A stretch of 46,398 nt of DNA from an uncultured Helicobacter sp. (GTDB lineage Bacteria; Campylobacterota; Campylobacteria; Campylobacterales; Helicobacteraceae). Position numbers and translations under genes: made by a program. This document shows, piece after piece, positions 2,553 to 46,398 of the stretch. The DNA is taken from NCBI GenBank assembly GCA_947177485.1, contig CAMWUR010000012.1, forward strand, positions 1-46,398, read 5' to 3'. A model generated the notes under the pieces. That model was not told the DNA's origin. It made no database searches and saw only the letters and a list, made by a program, of their open reading frames with translations. Numbering within the stretch: the first letter of the stretch is position 1; each line of letters opens with the position of its first letter.

Positions 2553-2813
2553 TTATTTATAAACATCGCCTCGACTATTTGCCTTATAAGCATAGACAAG
2601 AATTTGTTCTTCGATAATTTCATACAAAAAGCAGTATTTTCCAAGTCGTAGGCGATATTTGTTTTCCTCGCCTTTTAACTTTGCAATATCGAGTGCATTT
2701 TGGCGCGGATTTTGCGCAATTATCCTAAAACTTCTCACAACTTTTGGCGCTAAATCTCGATGTCTTTCCAAGAATTTATCAAATTCTTTGCTTATTTTGA
2801 TTTGATAAGACAT
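2553..2813 (-). CDS. RelE/YafQ-type toxin of the second TA module
   Basis: An 86-residue basic protein of the RelE superfamily. The N-terminal half MSYQIKISKEFDKFLERH is typical of RelE/YafQ-like toxins. The LKGEENKYRLRLGKYCFLYEI segment (about 44-64) carries the Arg-rich strand found in this fold, and the end is VYAYKANSRGDVYK. The predicted activity is ribosome-associated mRNA cleavage, an inference from the family. The ATG overlaps the antitoxin stop as TAATG, the same junction as in the first module. The two toxins differ clearly in sequence, so this is a second, diverged module and not a recent copy. Confidence 0.87.
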   Translation of the reverse strand: MSYQIKISKEFDKFLERHRDLAPKVVRSFRIIAQNPRQNALDIAKLKGEENKYRLRLGKYCFLYEIIEEQILVYAYKANSRGDVYK

Positions 2814-3025
2814 TACAAATACTTTCTTTCAAGTTCTTCCAAACTAATCGCCTCACCATTTGCTAGCTCTTTTCGAGCCTTTTTCCAAGCCTTGCGGTCG
2901 GCTTTGGTTTCCACAACCTCTTTTATGTTGCTTGTATCTTTAACACTTTTCACGCCTCTAATCAGCCGAATTGCATTCACAATTTGCTCTTGATTTTGGC
3001 TATTAATTTCTACACATAAAGTCAT
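2813..3025 (-). CDS. Antitoxin of the second TA module
   Basis: A 70-residue protein from the ATG at 3023-3025, preceded by AAGGATTGACA. An upstream in-frame ATG at 3061 would add 12 residues, but it lies upstream of the predicted transcription start and has no good ribosome site. The sequence is charged, with a helical N-terminal region (QNQEQIVNAIRLIRGVKSV) and a lysine-rich stretch leading to ELANGEAISLEELERKYL, a tail common in RelB-like antitoxins that occupy the toxin cleft. The gene directly precedes and overlaps its toxin. Exact antitoxin family not determined. Confidence 0.82.
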   Translation of the reverse strand: MTLCVEINSQNQEQIVNAIRLIRGVKSVKDTSNIKEVVETKADRKAWKKARKELANGEAISLEELERKYL

Positions 3026-3048
3026 TGTCAATCCTTCTTTTAATTTTG

Positions 3049-3057
3049 ATTCTATCA
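3049..3057 (-). promoter_or_regulatory. Extended -10 promoter of the second TA module
   Basis: On the minus strand the bases read TGA-TAGAAT. A start about 7 nt further gives a leader of about 17 nt before the ATG at 3025 and excludes the upstream ATG at 3061. No clear -35 box, which is usual for this group of bacteria. Confidence 0.5.
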
Positions 3058-3113
3058 TCATCTAATCTCCAGAATCGAGAAACGAGCAAACCAATTCTTC
3101 ATTCCAAACTCCC

Positions 3114-3635
3114 TCACAGCCCAAGTCGCAACAGCCCAACAGGAACTTTGATAACACATTTATGCACAATATCGCCATTTTCACCCGACACTTGCAAACC
3201 ACCCGCATGCACATCATTGGGGAAAAAGATGGCGAGCGAGCGGGGGCAGAGTGTGATGAATTGCGGGTTTGCCTGCATATTTGGGGGTGCATAGACGACA
3301 AGGTCGCGTTCCTCATCATAGGGCGCTTGCACTTTGCAATCCTCCGCTTCGCCAATCCAAAACCGCTCCTGCCCCGAGATGACAAGCTGAAAATCGACAT
3401 ATTGGCGGTGCGATTCAAAAAAGGCTTCGCCCGCTCCTTTGGTGCGATAACATTCAAAAATGGCACGCATTCCATGCCCGATGTCTTCGACTTTGCGCTC
3501 GCCGACATGCATTGTCTCGATGACGATGGATAATGTCCCATCAAGCGCGCTGTGCAAGCACTCGCGTAAGCGCAAGAGTGGCTCTGAACGTTCAAAAAGC
3601 GAACGTGCTTGGTGTGCGTCATAAAACAAAAGCAA
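3114..3635 (-). CDS. YhcH/YjgK/YiaL (TabA) family cupin-like protein
   Basis: A 173-residue protein of the DUF386 family. Family hallmarks seen are the metal-site segment ESHRQYVDFQLVISGQERFWIG (about 83-104, with His, Tyr, Asp, Glu) and a later FFPNDVHAGG followed by HKCVIKV. E. coli relatives include YhcH of the sialic acid operon and TabA, which affects biofilm formation. The enzymatic activity is not well established, so only the family is assigned. No ATG fits. A TTG at 3633-3635 sits five bases after GGAGG, and this GGAGG overlaps the last codons of the upstream cysN-like gene, so translation is probably coupled. A longer frame from 3716 would lie entirely inside the upstream gene. Last gene of the rho-to-yhcH run. 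Confidence 0.85.
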   Translation of the reverse strand: MLLFYDAHQARSLFERSEPLLRLRECLHSALDGTLSIVIETMHVGERKVEDIGHGMRAIFECYRTKGAGEAFFESHRQYVDFQLVISGQERFWIGEAEDCKVQAPYDEERDLVVYAPPNMQANPQFITLCPRSLAIFFPNDVHAGGLQVSGENGDIVHKCVIKVPVGLLRLGL

Positions 3636-3636
3636 T

Positions 3637-5028
3637 CTAACCTCCAAACTGATGTGGAAAATATTTACGCAGAAGCGCGAAAAGCTCTGTCTCAAACCCG
3701 GAAGGCAGCGAATCATTTGCGACTAATGTTGTCGTAATCGCTGAAATAGCAGCATTTTGAAGAATATCAAGCACAATTCCACCCGCAGCAGCGTCATATT
3801 CATCAACAAGCACAAACCGCCCAAGCGTTTGGTTGTCGGCAAAACGTGCGCAAACAAGCGGTGCAAGCAGACGCAAAACCACCGTGCCAGCCTGATTGCG
3901 CAAAAGCTCATGCGCATTGTGCAGCGCAATAGTCTCCTCACTGCCTGCTTCCAAGACCCGCTCAACACACACGAGCTCTGCTTTGACTTTTGCACTGCCA
4001 AGCTTCAAGAGATATTGCTTATTTTTGCAAAGAGGATTGCGACCAAGCCAGATTAGATTCACACGAATCTGTGTGGCAGTCTGCAAAAAGCTGCCCTTTT
4101 CCCATTGCGCCTTGCGCACCATCACCTCGCCGGGCTTGACATAAATATCTTCGCGAAGCGAGATTCCCACAGCCTCATGCCATGCGATTGTCTGCTTTTG
4201 GGGCGCGTTCCAAACCTCGAAACGTTCGATGGTTGCTGATTTTTGCGATGGCAAAAAAAGCACAGAATCACCAACCTCCGCGCTTCCGCTCACAACCGTT
4301 CCCGCATAAATGCGCCGTTCATCGCCCTCATTGCTAAAGCGATATACATCTTGCAACGGCAATAAAAATGTGTGATTGTCGCTGTCGTTTTTGTTTGAAA
4401 GCAAATCAAGATTCTGCAGCAAGCTGCCGCCATGATACCATGCCATCTGCGGAGATTGTGTCGCAACATTGTCGCCTTCGCGAGCCGAAATGGGAATCAC
4501 GCAAACAGGAACGACATTGAGTGTCGCAAGAAAATCAAGATATTCATTTTTGATATTCTCAAACACATCTTGTGCAAACCCAAATAAATCAAGCTTGTTA
4601 ATCACGACAATCACTTGCGAGATTCCAAGCATCGACAGCAGCATTCCATGACGTTTTGAATTTTCTGCCACGCCATCTTTGGCGTCAATCACCAAAACTG
4701 CCGCCTCTGCTCTGCTCGCACCGCTCAACATATTGCGCAAAAACTCGATGTGCCCCGGAGCATCGATGATGACATATTCGCGCCGCGTGCTCTTGAAAAA
4801 AATACGTGCCGAATCAATCGTGATTCCTTGCTTTTGTTCATCTTCGAGTGCATCGAGCAACATTGAATATTCAAAAGGACGTGCGTTTTTGGCACATGAC
4901 GCCCGCACACTCTCGAGCTTGCCTTGTGGGAGTGAATGCGTATCGGCGAGCAAGCGCCCCACAAGGGTAGATTTGCCATGGTCAACATGCCCCGTGATGA
5001 CAATGTGCATACGTTCTAATGCGTTCAT
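3637..5028 (-). CDS. cysN: CysN-like GTPase (sulfate adenylyltransferase large-subunit family)
   Basis: A 463-residue translation-factor-type GTPase. Motifs: G1 GHVDHGKS (13-20), QGITID (67-72) in the switch region, G3 DAPGH (89-93) and G4 NKLD (144-147), followed by two EF-Tu-like beta-barrel domains. The QGITIDSA...DAPGH...[14 protein letters not shown] pattern and the length place it with CysN, the GTPase that stimulates ATP sulfurylase CysD in sulfate activation (E. coli CysN is 475 residues). However no cysD, cysC or cysH is in this window; neighbours are an L,D-peptidase and yhcH. It may work with a CysD encoded elsewhere or do something else. The family is firm, the role less so. Confidence 0.82.
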
Positions 5029-5044
5029 TTTTTCCTTTCATGTT

Positions 5045-6025
5045 TTATTTTTCGGCGATAATGCGCATTTTGCCATTCACGAGCCGTACATAGAGTTCCT
5101 TATTGCCCTCAAATCGATAACCACTTGAAGCGCGATATTTTTCATGGAATGCAATGCGAAACAAAGCCTCGCCTTTTTCATTAGGATAAGGCGAAATATT
5201 GATATTGGTAAAGTCAATACTCTTGCTTTCTTTGCGTCCAAACACCTTGCGTTTGTAATCTTTAAAATCCTCAAAACGCATTTTATCAAAACGTTTGAAA
5301 TGCTGCTCATCATAAAAGCCAAGATATGTCTGCAAATCGCTCTCTTCCCATGCCTGCCTCCAAGCGAACAAGTCGCCTAGCAGGGCTGCTGCTTGCGCCT
5401 TGCTCATCTCGCCAAGCGTGCCTTCAGAAGTCAGCAGCACAGCTTGTTGGTGATTGATGACTTTATCGATTTCATTGAGTCTGTCATTATTAATCGCAAT
5501 ACAGCCTCGTGTGTTGATTTCACGCTCACCACTAAGCGGCAAACCATGAATCCAGATTCCATGCCCTGTTTTGCCCTGCACTTTGTCATAGGTGTTGGGA
5601 TATGACGTCACATAGGCAAGCGGTCCATAAAACGAATCAAGCTTTGTGAGTCGACTAGTCAGGTCATACGCGCCAATGGGTGTCTTGAGGTCGCCCTCGA
5701 CCATTTTGTCGCCTGTTTTGCTGCCCATAAGAGAATCGAGGCTGTATTTTTGTTCCAATCGATTGCCATTTTTTTGATAGAGCACCAATGTCGATGCTTG
5801 TTTGTTTGCGACGAAAATATATTGCACAGATTCATAATAGCCAAAACGAACATCTTCATCTTTGAGGCTTTCAGCCCAATAGCTCGAGCTTGCGAGCTCT
5901 TTTTGGAGCTGCGTTTTAATCGCTTCAAGTCCACCTTCGCGATAGGCTTTGACATAATCAAATCCCCATAAATATAAAGGCGCAATGCAGAAGAAAACCA
6001 CAATCCATTTTGACATATTTGACAT
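5045..6025 (-). CDS. Periplasmic L,D-transpeptidase/carboxypeptidase (Csd6/Pgp2-like)
   Basis: A 326-residue exported protein. A hydrophobic signal segment (residues 7-21) is followed by an ErfK/YbiS/YkuD catalytic domain with the motif HGIWIHG (His160) and RGCIAI (Cys175), then an NTF2-like C-terminal domain from about 205. That domain order and length match H. pylori Csd6 and C. jejuni Pgp2, which trim peptidoglycan tetrapeptides to tripeptides and are needed for helical cell shape; Csd6 is also linked to flagellin glycosylation. The ATG at 6023-6025, five bases after AGAGGAG, was chosen; the 38 extra codons upstream overlap era and look non-coding. Cell-shape function is inferred by similarity. 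Confidence 0.9.
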   Translation of the reverse strand: MSNMSKWIVVFFCIAPLYLWGFDYVKAYREGGLEAIKTQLQKELASSSYWAESLKDEDVRFGYYESVQYIFVANKQASTLVLYQKNGNRLEQKYSLDSLMGSKTGDKMVEGDLKTPIGAYDLTSRLTKLDSFYGPLAYVTSYPNTYDKVQGKTGHGIWIHGLPLSGEREINTRGCIAINNDRLNEIDKVINHQQAVLLTSEGTLGEMSKAQAAALLGDLFAWRQAWEESDLQTYLGFYDEQHFKRFDKMRFEDFKDYKRKVFGRKESKSIDFTNINISPYPNEKGEALFRIAFHEKYRASSGYRFEGNKELYVRLVNGKMRIIAEK

Positions 6026-6035
6026 ATCTGCTCCT

Positions 6036-6923
6036 CTAGTCCTCGAAATTATACCCAAAATCGCGCATTTTATCCTTGTCCTTGCACCATTTGCTATCCA
6101 CGCGCACAAATAAATTGAGGCGAATTTTTTTGCCCCCAAATTCTTCCATCATCTTGCGTGCATGCAACCCAATGCGGCGAATCGAGCTGCCATTTTTGCC
6201 AATCACAACGGCTTTTTGGCTCGGTTTGCAAACGACAATATCAGCAGCAATGCTGTCTTGATGAGGCGATTCGATGAATTTTTTTAACAAAACATCACTC
6301 TCATAAGGAATCTCATCGCTCATAAACTCAAAAATGGCTTCGCGAATCATCTCTTTGTAGAGACTGCGGAGATTCTCGGTTGTGGCAATCTCTGTGTCGA
6401 ACAACGCGGGAGAATCGGGCAGATTCTGTGCGAGCAGGTCGAGCAATGTCGTCAGGTTGTGCTGATTGTGCGCGCTTAGGGGCACGAGCGCCTCGTAATG
6501 TTGCGCAAGAGGCTGGTATTGCGCAATGCGCGCGAGCACCTCATCATGCCGCATTGTGTCAATTTTGGTGAGCGCAAGGAGATGTTTGCGCCCATGTGCA
6601 AGCTGCAAAAACTCTTCATAGCCCGCAAGGCTATCGTGAATGGGCGCGACAAACACGCACATATCGCAATCGCCAAGCGCACGCAACGATTCACCAAGCA
6701 TATAAGTATTGAGCAATTTTTCTTGATGATGAATCCCCGGTGTGTCGACAAAAATGATTTGCGCATTATTGTGAATCACGATGCACTGCAAGCGCTTGCG
6801 CGTTGCGTTTGCTTTGTGTGAAACAAGCGCGAGATGGTCGCGGCAAAGCGCATTGAGCAGTGAACTCTTACCCGCATTTGGACGCCCCAAAATGGCAACA
6901 AACCCAGCCTTTGTGATGGTCAT
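6036..6923 (-). CDS. era: Ribosome-assembly GTPase Era
   Basis: A 295-residue Ras-like GTPase with a C-terminal KH RNA-binding domain, needed for 30S maturation by binding the 3' end of 16S rRNA. G1 GRPNAGKSS (13-21) and G3 DTPG (60-63) are present. G4 reads TKID in place of the usual NKxD. The KH domain carries VVIGKNGSSIRRIG near residue 245. Length matches the family. The ATG overlaps the hslU stop by four bases (ATGA), so it is coupled to hslU. Confidence 0.97.
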   Translation of the reverse strand: MTITKAGFVAILGRPNAGKSSLLNALCRDHLALVSHKANATRKRLQCIVIHNNAQIIFVDTPGIHHQEKLLNTYMLGESLRALGDCDMCVFVAPIHDSLAGYEEFLQLAHGRKHLLALTKIDTMRHDEVLARIAQYQPLAQHYEALVPLSAHNQHNLTTLLDLLAQNLPDSPALFDTEIATTENLRSLYKEMIREAIFEFMSDEIPYESDVLLKKFIESPHQDSIAADIVVCKPSQKAVVIGKNGSSIRRIGLHARKMMEEFGGKKIRLNLFVRVDSKWCKDKDKMRDFGYNFED

Positions 6924-8257
6924 AAAATATAGCGCGCTGTATCGGTATCTTCAATCAAATCATCGAGCACTTCATGGACTTTTTGTTCCGTAACAGCAAC
7001 TTTTTGCCCATTGAAACAATCTGCCTCAAAGCTGATGTCTTCGAGCACTTTTTCAAGCACCGTATGCAAACGGCGCGCACCGATGTCTTCTGTTTTCTCA
7101 TTCGCACGTTGCGAGAGCTTCGCAAGCGCTCGAATCGCGTCTTCTTCAAAAACAAGCTCGACATCTTCTGTGGCAAGCAAGGCACTATATTGCTTGAGCA
7201 ATGAGTTTTTGGGCTGCGTGAGAATCTGATAGAGAATCTCTTCATCAAGTGAATCCAGCTCCACGCGAAGCGGAAAACGTCCTTGCAACTCGGGAATCAA
7301 ATCGCTTGGCTTGCTCAAATGAAAGGCTCCTGCAGCGATGAATAAGATATGGTCTGTCTTGATTTGCCCATATTTTGTGCTGACAGAGCTGCCCTCGACA
7401 ATCGGTAGCAAATCGCGTTGCACCCCTTCTTTGCTTGGGTCTTGACGACTCGAGCTGCCTTGCGAAACGGCGATTTTATCAATCTCATCGATAAAAATAA
7501 TCCCCTCTTCTTCTGCGCGCTTCAAGCCTTCGAGACGAATCGAATCCATATCGAGCAATTCCTCGCTTGCTTCGATTTTGAGCAACTCTTTTGCTTCGGC
7601 AACACTGACTTCTTTTTTTGGATTATCTTTATTTCCACTCATAAAAACTTTTGTAATCGATTCTTGAATCCGTACAATTTCTGGTGGCAGATTGCCTTCT
7701 TGAAATTCAATATTTTTTTTAGGAATCTCAATCTCAATCTTGAGATGGTCAACCTCGCCATTTTGCACTTTGCGCTTCATTTTTTCGTATGAGATATTGT
7801 ATTCATCTTGCTTGGTTTGTGTCGCTCCTTTAGGCAGCTGTGGGAGGAGCTTTTGCGTGATTTTATTGACGACATAATCCTCAATCGCGTCCTGATTTTT
7901 CTCTTTTTGTTCCTCTCGAATCAACGTCACAGACGCATTCACCAAATCACGTACCATCGATTCAACATCGCGCCCAACAAAGCCCACTTCGGTATATTTG
8001 CTCGCCTCAACTTTGATAAACGGCAAACCAAGAATCTTCGCCATGCGCCGCGCAATCTCGGTCTTGCCCACGCCTGTTGAACCAATCATCAAAATATTTT
8101 TAGGCTGCACTTCGTCTTGAAGTTCCTTGCTCAATTTTTTGCGGCGATAGCGGTTGCGCAATGCAATGGCAACGCGTTTTTTTGCCTCTTTTTGTCCGAT
8201 GATGTATTCATCAAGATAAGCAACAATCTCACGAGGTGTCATTTCTTCGTTACTCAT
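6920..8257 (-). CDS. hslU: ATP-dependent protease ATPase subunit HslU
   Basis: A 445-residue AAA+ unfoldase that feeds proteins into the HslV peptidase. Walker A is GSTGVGKTE (about 58-66) and Walker B is IIFIDEID (about 254-261). Between them lies the intermediate domain, rich in Lys and Glu. Sensor and C-terminal helices follow, ending ARYIL, the hydrophobic tail that docks in HslV. The ATG overlaps the hslV stop by four bases, the standard coupled order hslV-hslU. Confidence 0.98.
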
Positions 8258-8802
8258 GCATTTTCCTTGTTTTCAAGAATCAACGTTTTGATGTTTGTGT
8301 TGGTGTAGATACAAATCGCACCTGCAATCAAGAGCGATTCGCGCACAAGGCTTTCTTCGTCTAGCTCGCTGTGTTTGTGCAACGCGCGCGCAGCACTCAC
8401 GGCATAGTTTCCTCCGCTGCCAATGGCAGCAATTTGCCCATCTTCTGGCTCAACAACATCGCCCGTGCCGCTTAGGATAAAGATGTGTTCCCTATCAAGC
8501 ACAATCATCATCGCTTCAAGGCGGCGAAGATATTTATCTTTGCGCCATTCTTTGGAAAAATCGATGACGGATTTCATTAAATCGCCCTTGCGATTTTCCA
8601 AGATTCTCTCGAACATATCAAAAAGCGTAAAAGCATCTGCCGTGCTACCCGCAAAGCCGCTTAGAATCTTGCCATTATAGAGCGTGCGAATCTTTGTTGC
8701 ATTGCCTTTCATCACACAATTTCCAAGTGTTACTTGCCCATCGCCGCCGATGACGGAGCGATTCTTGCCCTTGTATGCGAGTATTGTTGTCGCGTGAAAC
8801 AC
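8254..8802 (-). CDS. hslV: ATP-dependent protease proteolytic subunit HslV
   Basis: A 182-residue proteasome-like Thr peptidase. The start is a GTG at 8800-8802 after GGGGGAA, giving [13 protein letters not shown]. pylori HslV begins in a very similar way. The catalytic Thr lies in the TTI motif and would be exposed by removing the first few residues. The family blocks [27 protein letters not shown] and [16 protein letters not shown] are intact. A frame from 8922 would add 40 residues but overlaps rplI and is not credible. It starts 1 nt after the rplI stop and overlaps hslU. Confidence 0.97.
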
Positions 8803-8803
8803 C

Positions 8804-9250
8804 CTATTCCCCCTGCACATCAAGCTTGATTGTCGCTTTGACACCAAGCCCAAGCTTGACTTCGAGGTCATAGAGCCCCGTGCTTTTAATCGGATTATGC
8901 AGCTCGATTCCTTTTTTGTCAATCATCACATGATGCGCTTTGTGAATGAGTTCTGCGATATGTTCCTTTGTGATTGCACCCTGCAACATGCCGTTGTTAC
9001 CCACTTTTGCATGGCAAACAACACTCTCTGCTGCGAGTTTTTTAGCAAGCGCTTCATATTCTGCCCTTTGCGCCGCTTCAACTTCAGCTTTTTTGCGTTG
9101 CTGCGCCTTGTAACGTGCAAGAATCTCGTTGGTTGCTTGCAAGGCAAGATTCTTTGCAATCAAAAAATTCATCGCATAGCCATCTTTGACATCGCAAACA
9201 TCGCCTGCCTTGCCAAGCCCCTTCACATTTTCTGTCAGCAAAACTTTCAT
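8804..9250 (-). CDS. rplI: 50S ribosomal protein L9
   Basis: A 148-residue L9 with the usual two globular domains joined by a long helix. The N-terminal domain starts [18 protein letters not shown] and includes YAMNFLI. The Lys/Gln/Ala-rich helix spans about 41-75, and the C-terminal rRNA-binding domain ends with IKLDVQGE. Located between rho and hslV, as part of one minus-strand run; Campylobacter also groups rplI with hslUV and era. Confidence 0.97.
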
Positions 9251-9273
9251 GTATTTTCCTTTATTTGGATTGT

Positions 9274-10593
9274 TTAACCTTCATTCATGATACTCAAAAA
9301 CTCTTCATTATTTTTCGTGCCACGCATTTTGCTATACAAAAACGTGAGCGCCTCCACTTCGTTATTCATCTGCTGAATCACATTGCGCAATGTCCAGACT
9401 TTTTGCAGCTTCTCGTTACCAAGCAGAATCTCTTCTTTGCGCGTGCCCGATTTGAGAATATCCATTGCAGGATAGATTCGCCTATCGGCGATATGCCGCG
9501 CAAGCACAATCTCCGAATTGCCCGTGCCCTTAAATTCTTCAAAAATCACCTCGTCCATGCGCGAGCCCGTCTCGATGAGTGCGGTGGCGATAATCGTGAG
9601 GCTGCCGCCTTCTTCGACATTGCGCGCCGCACCGAAGAATCGCTTGGGTTTATGCAACGCATTGGCATCCACACCACCGCTTAGCACCTTGCCGCTGCTT
9701 GGCGTGGCTGTGTTGTATGCGCGCGCAAGACGCGTAATCGAATCGAGCAAAATCACGACATCACGTTTCATTTCAACACTTCGTTTTGCCTTTTCAACAA
9801 CAAGCTCGGCAACGCGGATATGGTTGATTGCTGGCACATCAAATGTCGAACTATACACCTCGCCCTTGACAGAACGTTCCATGTCGGTTACTTCTTCGGG
9901 GCGCTCGTCGACAAGAAGCACAATGAGCTCGACATCGGGGTGGTTGCGCTCGATTCCCTGCGCAAGTTCTTTCATGAGCTCGGTCTTGCCCGTTCGCGGA
10001 GGCGCGACAATCAACGCGCGCTGCCCTTTGCCGATGGGCGCGAACAAATCAAGCATTCTGCCTGTGATTTTGTTTGCGTCATATTCAAGCTTGATTTGCT
10101 GTGTGGGAAACAACGGCGTGAGATTGTCAAACAATGGGCGATTTTTCATCTCATCAACAGCTTGGTAGTTGATGGCTTCGATTTTCAGTAACGCATAGTA
10201 ACGTTCTTGGTCTTTGGGTGGGCGCACTTGCCCCGTAACAAGGTCGCCGCTGCGCAATGCAAAACGGCGAATCTGCGTGTTGCTCACATACGCATCGTTT
10301 TGCGAATCCGAGAGATTCTCGTTCATCGCACGCAAGAAGCCATGCCCCTCGCTCGAAACCTCGAGAATGCCCGTGAAGAGGATATAACCGCCCTTGCTCA
10401 CTTGCGATTTGAGAATCTCAAATATCAACTCTTGTCGGCGATATTCTTGGGGGTTTTCAACCCCGAGTTCATTGGCAATTTTGAGAATCTGCTCCATTGG
10501 TTTGGCACGTAATTCTTCAATCTTGTAGCCCTCAACCGGTGTGTGTGTCCGAACCTTTCCGTTCTTTTCTTTTGGAGTGCTGCTTTCACCCAT
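9274..10593 (-). CDS. rho: Transcription termination factor Rho
   Basis: A 439-residue hexameric RNA helicase. The first ~30 residues are a charged variable leader, then the OB-fold RNA-binding domain (about 55-140), then the RecA-like motor with Walker [11 protein letters not shown] near residue 198 and Walker [15 protein letters not shown]. The Q-loop/R-loop region follows ([21 protein letters not shown]). Length fits bacterial Rho without a large insertion. First gene of the run down to yhcH, with 23 nt to rplI. The divergent upstream region (10594-10748) holds a candidate promoter and a hairpin. Confidence 0.98.
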
Positions 10594-43658: not shown

Positions 43659-45863
43659 TTAGAAATCTGCACTTATCGAGAGATAATAGCGCCGCCCTTC
43701 ACGAATGTAGTTATAATTGTTGGTGTAGGTATTGGTGTAGCTATACTGCGCACCGCTTGCTGCAATATTGGTTACGGGGACATAATCCACGAAATCATGA
43801 TTGAGCAGATTGTAGATTCCAAAATTTGCACGCAATGTAGGTGTGAAATGATAATTCGCGCTTAGGTGCAACAGGAAATAGGGCTCGTAATATTCGCTCA
43901 CACCGGGATTGACACGTTGAAACTCTTCGAGAATGGTCGTATCGCCCGCCGTTGAGCCCGCTCGCCCTCCAATTTGGGTGCGCAATTGCCGCGCGCGAAA
44001 CTCTCCGCGCAAAGATGCGCCAAAGTCGCCATAGCCATAGTTCAGACCCGCATTGAGCGTATGTTCGGGCACACCTGTCAACGGTAGCCCTTTGTCCACT
44101 CCCGACGTGATTTCGTTTTTGAGCCATGTATATGCCAGATTCACGCCAACCCTGCCCGCGCCCGTGTCTATCGCCTTGAGCGCCGCAGCAAGCTCGATTC
44201 CATAGCTACGTGCGCTATCAACGTTGTAGCTATAACTGCAACTCGTGCCGGGCGTACCGAGTGTTGTGAGGAAATAATCGCATGTTTGCCCCGCCGCCAT
44301 CGCCGTTCCCACCTGTCCTTGTGCCCCCATCGACACGCTCGCGCTTGCGATTTTGTCTTTGAAGTCTTGCAAGAATCCTGTGAGCGAGATGTCGGTATAG
44401 GGCGTCTCATGCATAAGCGAGATTTCATAGCTGATAGAAGTCTCGGGCTTGAGGTCAGGGTTTCCAAATCCATGTGCGCTACCACCGCTATTGCCGCCCC
44501 CACTGCTGCTAATCCAACCGGGCAAGGTCGAGGTGATTTCGGGCAATTTGTAGCCTGTCGATACCCCACCCTTGAGCGTCAAGCTATCACTCAAATAGCC
44601 CACGAGATAGGCGCGCGGAGAGAAGTTGAGGTCGAAATCGCTATTTGCATTTGCGCGCGCACCAAAATTGAACAACAACGAATCGAGAATCGCCCATTCA
44701 TCTTCGGCATAGAGCGCATAGGTATGGCGATTCACAGCACTGCCAATCTCGCTGCTAAAGGTGCTGCCATGCACTGCTTTGACTTCTGAATAGTCATATT
44801 GCCCGCCAACATTGAGCTTCATGCGCCAAAAAGCGATGCTGCTTTTGTGTTCGGCGATGATGTCGCGTCCGTTGCGACTTCTGCTAAAATTGCGCGCTGT
44901 GTTATATTGCAAGCTCGAATCCGTCAGCCAATCGCGATATGTCCCTTCATGCCGCACTAGAAAATTGTTGCGGATAAAATAGCTATTCTCAAATGCGGCT
45001 GGGTCATACCATTGCCCGCCGTGTTGCAAATCGACAGAATACGCGTTGCTCTCATCTTTTGCAAATCCAATGCGCCCACCTGCCGCATAGTTATGGTTTT
45101 TGCCCCCGCCTAGAATCTGGCTGAACGTTTGCGTGCCGTTGCTCGCCGCAGCACTTGGAACAAGCGGATTATCGCCCGCGCCGCGTGCAGGAAGCGTGAG
45201 GGTGAGGTCGCCACGTTGTGGCGCTGTGTAGAGCTCGCTTGCGCGCAGCTGGAGCGACCACCTTTTGTCGGGTGTGAGCGGTCCTGCCGTGAAAGCTGAA
45301 AGCCCGATATTGTTACCAAACAAGCTATTTTCCTGAATTGTTGTACTCGCTGTGGCATTACTTGTCCATTTGTCAAAGGATTTTTTGAGAATCACATTCA
45401 CAACCCCTCCCATTGCATCATTGCCATAGATAATAGATGCGGGACCGCGAATCACCTCGATACGTTCAATCGCTGCGATTGGGGGCATAAACGTCGACTG
45501 GGCAAAGCCGCTGTTGGGATAGACGAGGCTGTTGGTGTCTTGGCGCTTACCATCGATGAGCAAAAGCGTATAATTGGCGGGCATCCCGCGAATCGAAATG
45601 CTCGTTGTCCCAAAGTCGGTTACGCCGCTTTCAATGCTTACACCCGGAAGCTGGCTCACTGCCTCGGCAAGGTCGCGCACGGGGCGAGTCGAAAGCTCAT
45701 CACCCTCGACCATCGAAACGCTCGCAGGCGCATCACGCAAATCTTGTTCAAACCCTGTCGCGCTCACCACAGAACGACTAAGCTGGATTGTTTCGGCATG
45801 CAAGCTCGCAACAGCCGCCGCGCCCGCCAGAAGTTGTGCGAGGATTTTTGAATTTTGAATCAT
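43659..45863 (-). CDS. TonB-dependent outer-membrane receptor (CirA/CfrB-like)
   Basis: A 734-residue receptor. Signal peptide to about residue 23 (SLHA), a TonB-box region around RSVVSATG, a plug domain (about 40-155) with LPGVSIES, SIRGMPANYTLLLIDGKRQ and IERIEVIRGPASIIYGNDAMGG, then the 22-strand barrel with alternating Gly/aromatic strands. It ends SADF, the C-terminal Phe needed for outer-membrane insertion. One extracellular loop has a Cys pair (TCDYFLTT...TSCSYSY). The plug resembles ferric-siderophore receptors of the CirA/CfrB type; the ligand is not shown. The leader has weak Fur-box-like sequence, in keeping with iron control. It stands alone. Confidence 0.93.
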   Translation of the reverse strand: MIQNSKILAQLLAGAAAVASLHAETIQLSRSVVSATGFEQDLRDAPASVSMVEGDELSTRPVRDLAEAVSQLPGVSIESGVTDFGTTSISIRGMPANYTLLLIDGKRQDTNSLVYPNSGFAQSTFMPPIAAIERIEVIRGPASIIYGNDAMGGVVNVILKKSFDKWTSNATASTTIQENSLFGNNIGLSAFTAGPLTPDKRWSLQLRASELYTAPQRGDLTLTLPARGAGDNPLVPSAAASNGTQTFSQILGGGKNHNYAAGGRIGFAKDESNAYSVDLQHGGQWYDPAAFENSYFIRNNFLVRHEGTYRDWLTDSSLQYNTARNFSRSRNGRDIIAEHKSSIAFWRMKLNVGGQYDYSEVKAVHGSTFSSEIGSAVNRHTYALYAEDEWAILDSLLFNFGARANANSDFDLNFSPRAYLVGYLSDSLTLKGGVSTGYKLPEITSTLPGWISSSGGGNSGGSAHGFGNPDLKPETSISYEISLMHETPYTDISLTGFLQDFKDKIASASVSMGAQGQVGTAMAAGQTCDYFLTTLGTPGTSCSYSYNVDSARSYGIELAAALKAIDTGAGRVGVNLAYTWLKNEITSGVDKGLPLTGVPEHTLNAGLNYGYGDFGASLRGEFRARQLRTQIGGRAGSTAGDTTILEEFQRVNPGVSEYYEPYFLLHLSANYHFTPTLRANFGIYNLLNHDFVDYVPVTNIAASGAQYSYTNTYTNNYNYIREGRRYYLSISADF

Positions 45864-45872
45864 GTTGTCTCC

Positions 45873-45915
45873 TTATAAAAATAAGAATGATTATACAAAT
45901 TGTATTATTAGGATA
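45873..45915 (-). promoter_or_regulatory. Promoter region of the TonB receptor gene, possible Fur site
   Basis: On the minus strand TATAAT at 45890-45895 is a -10 candidate. Around it lie TAATAAT (upstream, plus 45904-45910 complement) and AATCATTCTTATT, resembling the AT-rich inverted repeats of Fur boxes, though not a full match to the consensus. Confidence 0.35.
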
Positions 45916-45974
45916 AGATTAAAATACTTCTTACTATTGATATATTAATGGTGTAGGCACGCAATCTTCTTCAA

Positions 45975-46004
45975 TTGACAATGGCAAGATTTTTATGCTA
46001 GAAT
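45975..46004 (+). promoter_or_regulatory. Sigma-70 promoter of the poly-G gene
   Basis: TTGACA (45975-45980), an 18-base spacer and TGC-TAGAAT (-10 at 45999-46004). GGGGAG follows at 46019-46024, five bases before the ATG at 46030. Confidence 0.8.
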
Positions 46005-46029
46005 CGAAACAAAAACACGGGGAGTGCGC

Positions 46030-46398
46030 ATGCGCAGCAAAGAATTGCAGCTGTCGGGGCAGATGTTGACAGCCAAACAGCCGCTCGAATCGGCGTCATT
46101 TGATAGGGCGATTCAGGCTTTTTTGGAACGTAGAGGGCAGGAAGCAATGCCACTCGATTCGATGCAGCCTATCGACACGGGCGATTTTGCCTTTATCCAA
46201 ATCTCGCATATTTGCTATGAGCGCGAGCGCGATTGCAGCGACAAAAATTTGCTCGATTTGCAACAAATTCTAAGCGCAACAGCAAATATTGGGGGGGGGG
46301 GCAATTGCGATACCGCATTGTATATGATGGCGAGAATGGCCAAGAGAAACTATGCGTTTGCCAACAATGTTCCACACAAAATTAAGACAAAACGAGCG
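46030..46398 (+). CDS. Hypothetical protein with 11-G contingency tract (partial, runs off the window)
   Basis: The first 123 codons of a gene with strong promoter and ribosome site. The start is MRSKELQLSGQMLTAKQPLE; the protein is not recognised. At 46291-46301 there are eleven consecutive G bases inside the frame, coding for glycines. With 11 G the frame stays open to the window end (NNVPHKIKTKRA). With 10 G a TGA follows after about a dozen codons. With 12 G the reading is QLRYRIVYDGENGQEKL and stops after about 30 residues. Long G tracts in such genes usually vary by slippage, so this is probably a phase-variable gene. Which length is the ON state cannot be told from the visible part. 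Confidence 0.7.
   Translation, partial: MRSKELQLSGQMLTAKQPLESASFDRAIQAFLERRGQEAMPLDSMQPIDTGDFAFIQISHICYERERDCSDKNLLDLQQILSATANIGGGGNCDTALYMMARMAKRNYAFANNVPHKIKTKRA

Follow-up and report, generated by a model that had tools for sequence, protein, structure and literature searches.

Does the run of G at the end of this contig switch a gene on and off, and if so, which gene? The window analysed here is the entire contig C12 (46,398 bp), one of the 97 contigs of a draft Helicobacteraceae genome (G000). G runs of this kind underlie random gene switching in Helicobacter. A first, sequence-only reading had proposed that the tract makes a surface or restriction gene phase-variable, with 11 G as the open state. 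Our analysis indicates that the tract is probably a phase switch, but that the gene concerned heads a leoBC-leoA dynamin operon, the rest of which lies on another contig, C10.

The tract and its setting

The features on which the argument depends are as follows.

45975..46004, + strand: putative sigma70-like promoter TTGACA-N18-TAGAAT, read from sequence (TTGACA 45975-45980, TAGAAT 45999-46004, spacer 18 bases)
46019..46024, + strand: predicted ribosome-binding site GGGGAG, 5 bases 5' of the ATG at 46030, read from sequence
46030..46290, + strand: genuine 5' part of the short gene, 87 codons, HerA-like N-terminal domain by homology
46291..46301, + strand: poly-G tract, assembled as 11 but of uncertain length; phase-switch candidate from shuffles and from G10 and G7 in relatives
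46302..46398, no strand: noisy contig tail, an erroneous and unusable copy of C10 47645-47741 (complement strand), from a gapless 73/97 match

The sequence-only reading had thus described the start of the gene correctly: the eleven G are present at 46291-46301, the full promoter lies upstream of the ATG at 46030, and the roughly 90 codons said to precede the tract are 87 when counted from that ATG. A run of this type was seen in none of 100 shuffled versions of the window, so that a chance origin is not expected. The genome contains 62 runs of at least nine G followed by another base, part of which are artefacts at contig ends.

On the opposite strand, a gene for a TonB-dependent receptor (43659-45863) adjoins the short gene divergently. 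The A/T-rich stretch before it (45864-45920), AATAAGAATGATTATACAAATTGTATTATTAGG, resembles a Fur-type operator by eye.

The sequence beyond the tract

C12 ends 97 bases beyond the tract, and these bases match the inside of the C10 end without gaps at 73 of 97 positions (75%), where the next best match scores 44 and shuffles reach at most 45. The C10 end itself runs into an artefactual run of 52 G. This arrangement recurs throughout the assembly. The survey took in 178 contig ends, those of all but eight of the smallest contigs. A G or C run of 8 or more lies within the last 200 bases of 41 of them, compared with 13 of 1450 interior tiles (odds ratio 33, p 1.5e-30). Most tract-bearing ends are either "live", with an outward tract of G10-G17 followed by at most 115 bases, or "dead", with unique sequence running into about 40-53 G. 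Ten pairs, including C12-C10, were found in which a live tail matches the inside of a dead end without gaps; the identities, 52-100%, exceed every shuffle, and the offset approximates the length of the artefact run of the dead end. We regard the G runs of dead ends as artefacts because a C run is what the joined orientation would require at that place. In two-colour chemistries G carries no label (PMC11140927), so that lost signal is read as G, and we infer that the assembly derives from a two-colour machine.

As far as a cause can be assigned, the errors in the tails are low-quality bases after the G tract. Read-through into adapter was considered as a general cause and rejected: one tail (C36S) carries a degraded Nextera adapter that matches clearly (79% of 34 bases), another end (C33E) gives a marginal match, and C12 gives none. 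Simple phasing error from neighbouring bases was also set aside, as by eye some of the differences do not fit it. Roughly one in four of the examined contig ends breaks off at a G tract, for example the C10 end (L066), the C5 end (L071) and the C32 start (L080), and gene calls within the noisy tails of live ends are untrustworthy. More generally, in short-read assemblies the bases past a G tract at a contig end (up to about 100) may be wrong at up to half of their positions; frames and ON/OFF states read from them are therefore not evidence.

If, as the sequence-only reading had it, 11 G were the ON state of a longer gene extending past the window, C10 would have to be a separate paralogue. 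The window's own letters do remain open to the end in the 11-G frame. However, the tail behaves as a noisy gapless copy of the C10 end, as in nine other pairs, and its differences from C10 fall on the three codon positions as 9, 9 and 6, without codon structure. The corresponding rates (pN 0.27, pS 0.16) are unlike the genuine divergence of the N-terminal part of the gene (pN 0.20, pS 0.88). At the positions where tail and C10 differ, a relative from another genus (G110) agrees with C10 at 17 of 19 and with the tail at one, and Helicobacter mesocricetorum (G116) agrees with C10 at 7 of 10 and never with the tail. No second N-terminal part that could belong to C10 was found in the genome. On the ten-pair pattern and the agreement of the relatives with C10 we reject two paralogues, and we consider an ON state at 11 G in a longer gene to be very improbable. 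What follows the tract in C12, 97 bases in all, is noise, and the genuine continuation is on C10. The case for a physical join of C12 to C10, made from sequence comparison, is strong.

Reading frames of the joined locus

The sequence-only reading had given a different outcome for each of three tract lengths, which holds on the window's own letters and changes once C10 replaces the noisy tail. With the tract set to 9, 12 or 15 in the joined sequence, the frame stays open for 72 codons beyond it; such lengths, divisible by three, give an open reading frame of 162-164 residues that ends in a TGA overlapping the ATG of leoBC (TGATG). With 10 G a stop follows about 6 codons after the tract end, and with 11 about 20 codons after the tract start. 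Extending each frame to its end through C10, as had been suggested, thus closes all of them, leaves 11 short and makes only multiples of three long. The open frame claimed for 11 G does not survive this extension, and neither does the stop placed about 30 residues on for 12 G, as its TAA is an error of the tail and 12 restores the conserved frame. That the contig tail is in error could not be known from the letters, which is why the wrong frame was taken as ON. The assembled 11 G would then be out of frame, that is OFF, although the count itself is unreliable because reads fail there. The locus shows, as expected of a phase-variable gene, a homopolymer of at least 8 in a coding frame, and three lengths lead to three outcomes.

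The short protein

Pfam and NCBIfam scans of the 125-residue frame of the window and of its 12-G version gave no match, and a search for related loci across the contigs of the genomes with the window's frame returned nothing. The product of the short gene likewise had no match in Pfam, NCBIfam or PADLOC, hence none to restriction, LPS or outer-membrane proteins. The proposal of a surface or restriction gene therefore lacks such homology; only the N-termini of HerA-like ATPases match. The profile search that had been called for was carried out but drew a blank in Pfam and NCBIfam, and kinship was established from these N-termini. The N-terminal part is homologous to those of the HerA-like proteins of four genomes (G002, G030, G093 and G118), with 44-48% identity to G118 and G093 for a closely related composite query. 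The alignment covers only the N-terminal ~130 residues of an ATPase that in G030 has 1,084 residues (DUF87), and the motor domain with its Walker motifs is absent from G000: only the N-terminus matches, and the joined reading frame ends at about 163 residues. Judged by homology, the short gene belongs with the HerA-like ATPases in truncated form, with the N-terminal domain kept and the motor lost.

The full-length relatives lie in operons of their own (L064 4393-10814; L248 about 2650-9346; L247; L065), which contain an HNH nuclease (LHH or colicin-DNase/WHH), an immunity protein of the SUKH or DUF6985 type and a dynamin-like GTPase. Three of the four genomes have a tract (G15, C12 or G10) close to the start of the HerA-like gene, and the operon has the look of a phase-variable cassette for toxin-immunity or defence.

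The missing motor domain means that the short gene may be a remnant, that is, a decaying HerA-like gene with its core deleted, in which the tract slips without consequence and leoBC is expressed alone. Decay is indeed visible in the relatives: the leader of G110 is broken twice, leoBC of H. mesocricetorum is itself frameshifted, and the internal deletions differ among the three genomes. Against this, the N-terminal part is under purifying selection (pN 0.20 against a saturated pS of 0.88 over 67 codons between two genera), promoter and start are intact, and in two of the three genomes the frame after the tract is open to the stop that overlaps leoBC. We therefore hold a mere remnant to be unlikely, and favour a phase-switched leader of the downstream operon.

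The downstream operon

On C10 the short gene is followed by leoBC, encoding 687 residues that match the PADLOC model over 14-567 of 601 (E 2e-132), and by leoA, encoding 571 residues that match over 1-553 of 559 (E 1e-155; Pfam PF18709, E 4e-108). Both models are thus matched over most of their length by adjacent genes, which overlap by 4 bases, as in a Leo dynamin operon. A third gene after this pair encodes a small protein of 122 residues. LeoBC and LeoA are dynamin-like GTPases of the defence class in PADLOC, and the pair is a predicted anti-phage system. Predicted "dynamins" defence loci are present in H. pylori strains (PMC12003011), and in enterotoxigenic Escherichia coli (ETEC) LeoA is linked to vesicle secretion (PMC4159319).

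A ribosome-binding sequence, AGGGGAGG, precedes the ATG of leoBC itself, which may therefore be translated without the leader. This bears on a further alternative, in which switching by the tract is confined to the short protein; this would act as partner or regulator of the dynamin pair, whose own expression is unaffected. Such a role would fit the purifying selection on the N-terminal domain, and full-length HerA-like relatives share operons with a dynamin-like GTPase. It fits less well with a stop-start overlap that recurs in three genomes, and with repeats that at other loci lie inside leoBC or just upstream of it. We rate a switch confined to the short protein as quite unlikely.

Conservation in relatives

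In G110, whose genome is a single contig, GCAAATATT-G7-CAATTCGCATATCTCG lies upstream of a leoBC that is 74% identical to that of C10, and the flanks before and after the tract are the same as in the joined locus. In H. mesocricetorum (NZ_FZPJ01000018.1) an N-terminal part of ~70% identity, G10, CAAATTGCCTATTTAATTGATTGTGATGGGCAA and leoBC likewise follow one another on one contig. The codon position of the tract is therefore shared while its length differs in the orthologues, with G11 here, G10 in H. mesocricetorum and G7 in the decayed copy of G110, a third genus. In both relatives, too, the short gene's frame ends in an overlap with the start of leoBC, despite different internal deletions. 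In G110 a second frame shift disrupts the leader and leoBC is open all the same, which counts against a dependence of leoBC on the leader; leoBC of H. mesocricetorum is the frameshifted copy noted above.

Tracts also occur near the N-termini of the full-length HerA-like relatives (G15 in G093, C12 in G118, G10 in G002, none in G030), at positions other than that of the short gene. At the lengths assembled for these three genomes, and likewise for H. mesocricetorum and G110, the start is out of register with the conserved frame. Five of seven family members thus have at least 10 consecutive G or C near the N-terminus, for which the chance at this genome's tract density is ~5e-9, a rough figure that ignores kinship. 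The tract at the same codon with other lengths, as one of dozens in the genome and in a family where most members carry one, gives the proposal of likely phase variation good, if indirect, support.

Across 30 leoBC loci of Helicobacteraceae (L210-L236), a poly-T of 9-15 lies just upstream in 12, at -50 to -59 in 11 of these, and G8-G13 lies ~400 bases into leoBC in four, counts in which loci within one genus are not independent. These repeats suggest the dynamin pair as the switched target, and the dynamin operons look like repeated contingency loci in Helicobacteraceae.

Proposed mechanism and comparison with known systems

Most likely, the gene is phase-variable and stands first in a Leo operon, and it may switch leoBC through translational coupling. 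Slipped-strand change in the length of the tract, which is well supported by the comparisons above, would shift the frame of the ~163-residue leader. At a length divisible by three, translation would run to the TGATG overlap, from which ribosomes can pass on to leoBC since the stop overlaps its start. Out of frame, including at 11, translation would end about 55 or more codons before leoBC; the short protein would be lost and expression of leoBC and leoA probably lowered. Coupling of the leader to leoBC, with its effect on the dynamins, is plausible. A broader reading joins two statements: that a truncated HerA-type N-domain leader, phase-variable and translationally coupled, switches the Leo operon, and that Leo dynamins recur as contingency loci in the Helicobacteraceae by three designs, in which the repeat is a G tract within a leader gene, a G tract within leoBC, or a poly-T just upstream. 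We advance this combination only tentatively.

A search of the open-licence literature turned up no paper that describes Leo dynamins as phase-variable. If the reading is correct, a predicted defence operon of dynamins is randomly switched in gut Helicobacters, as restriction systems are, leaving one part of a population armed and the other part not.

The locus resembles ETEC LeoABC and the LeoA relatives of H. pylori in that LeoBC and LeoA are near full length, in the same order and overlapping. It differs from ETEC LeoABC in that a short gene with a HerA-type N-domain, itself a candidate for phase variation, precedes leoBC; the available part of the ETEC report describes no such leader gene or switch (PMC4159319). 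With the HerA-like (DUF87, PF01935) operons of G030, G118, G093 and G002 it shares the N-terminal ~130 residues, a tract near the N-terminus (in three of these four) and a dynamin-like GTPase that follows in the operon, but the motor domain, the nuclease and the immunity genes are absent here. As in the poly-G contingency genes of Helicobacter and Campylobacter, about 10 G lie towards the 5' end of a coding frame and have an ON/OFF consequence. Unlike in those systems, the target is the leader of a dynamin operon and not a gene for surface, LPS or restriction functions: the switching mechanism is known, and its target is unusual.
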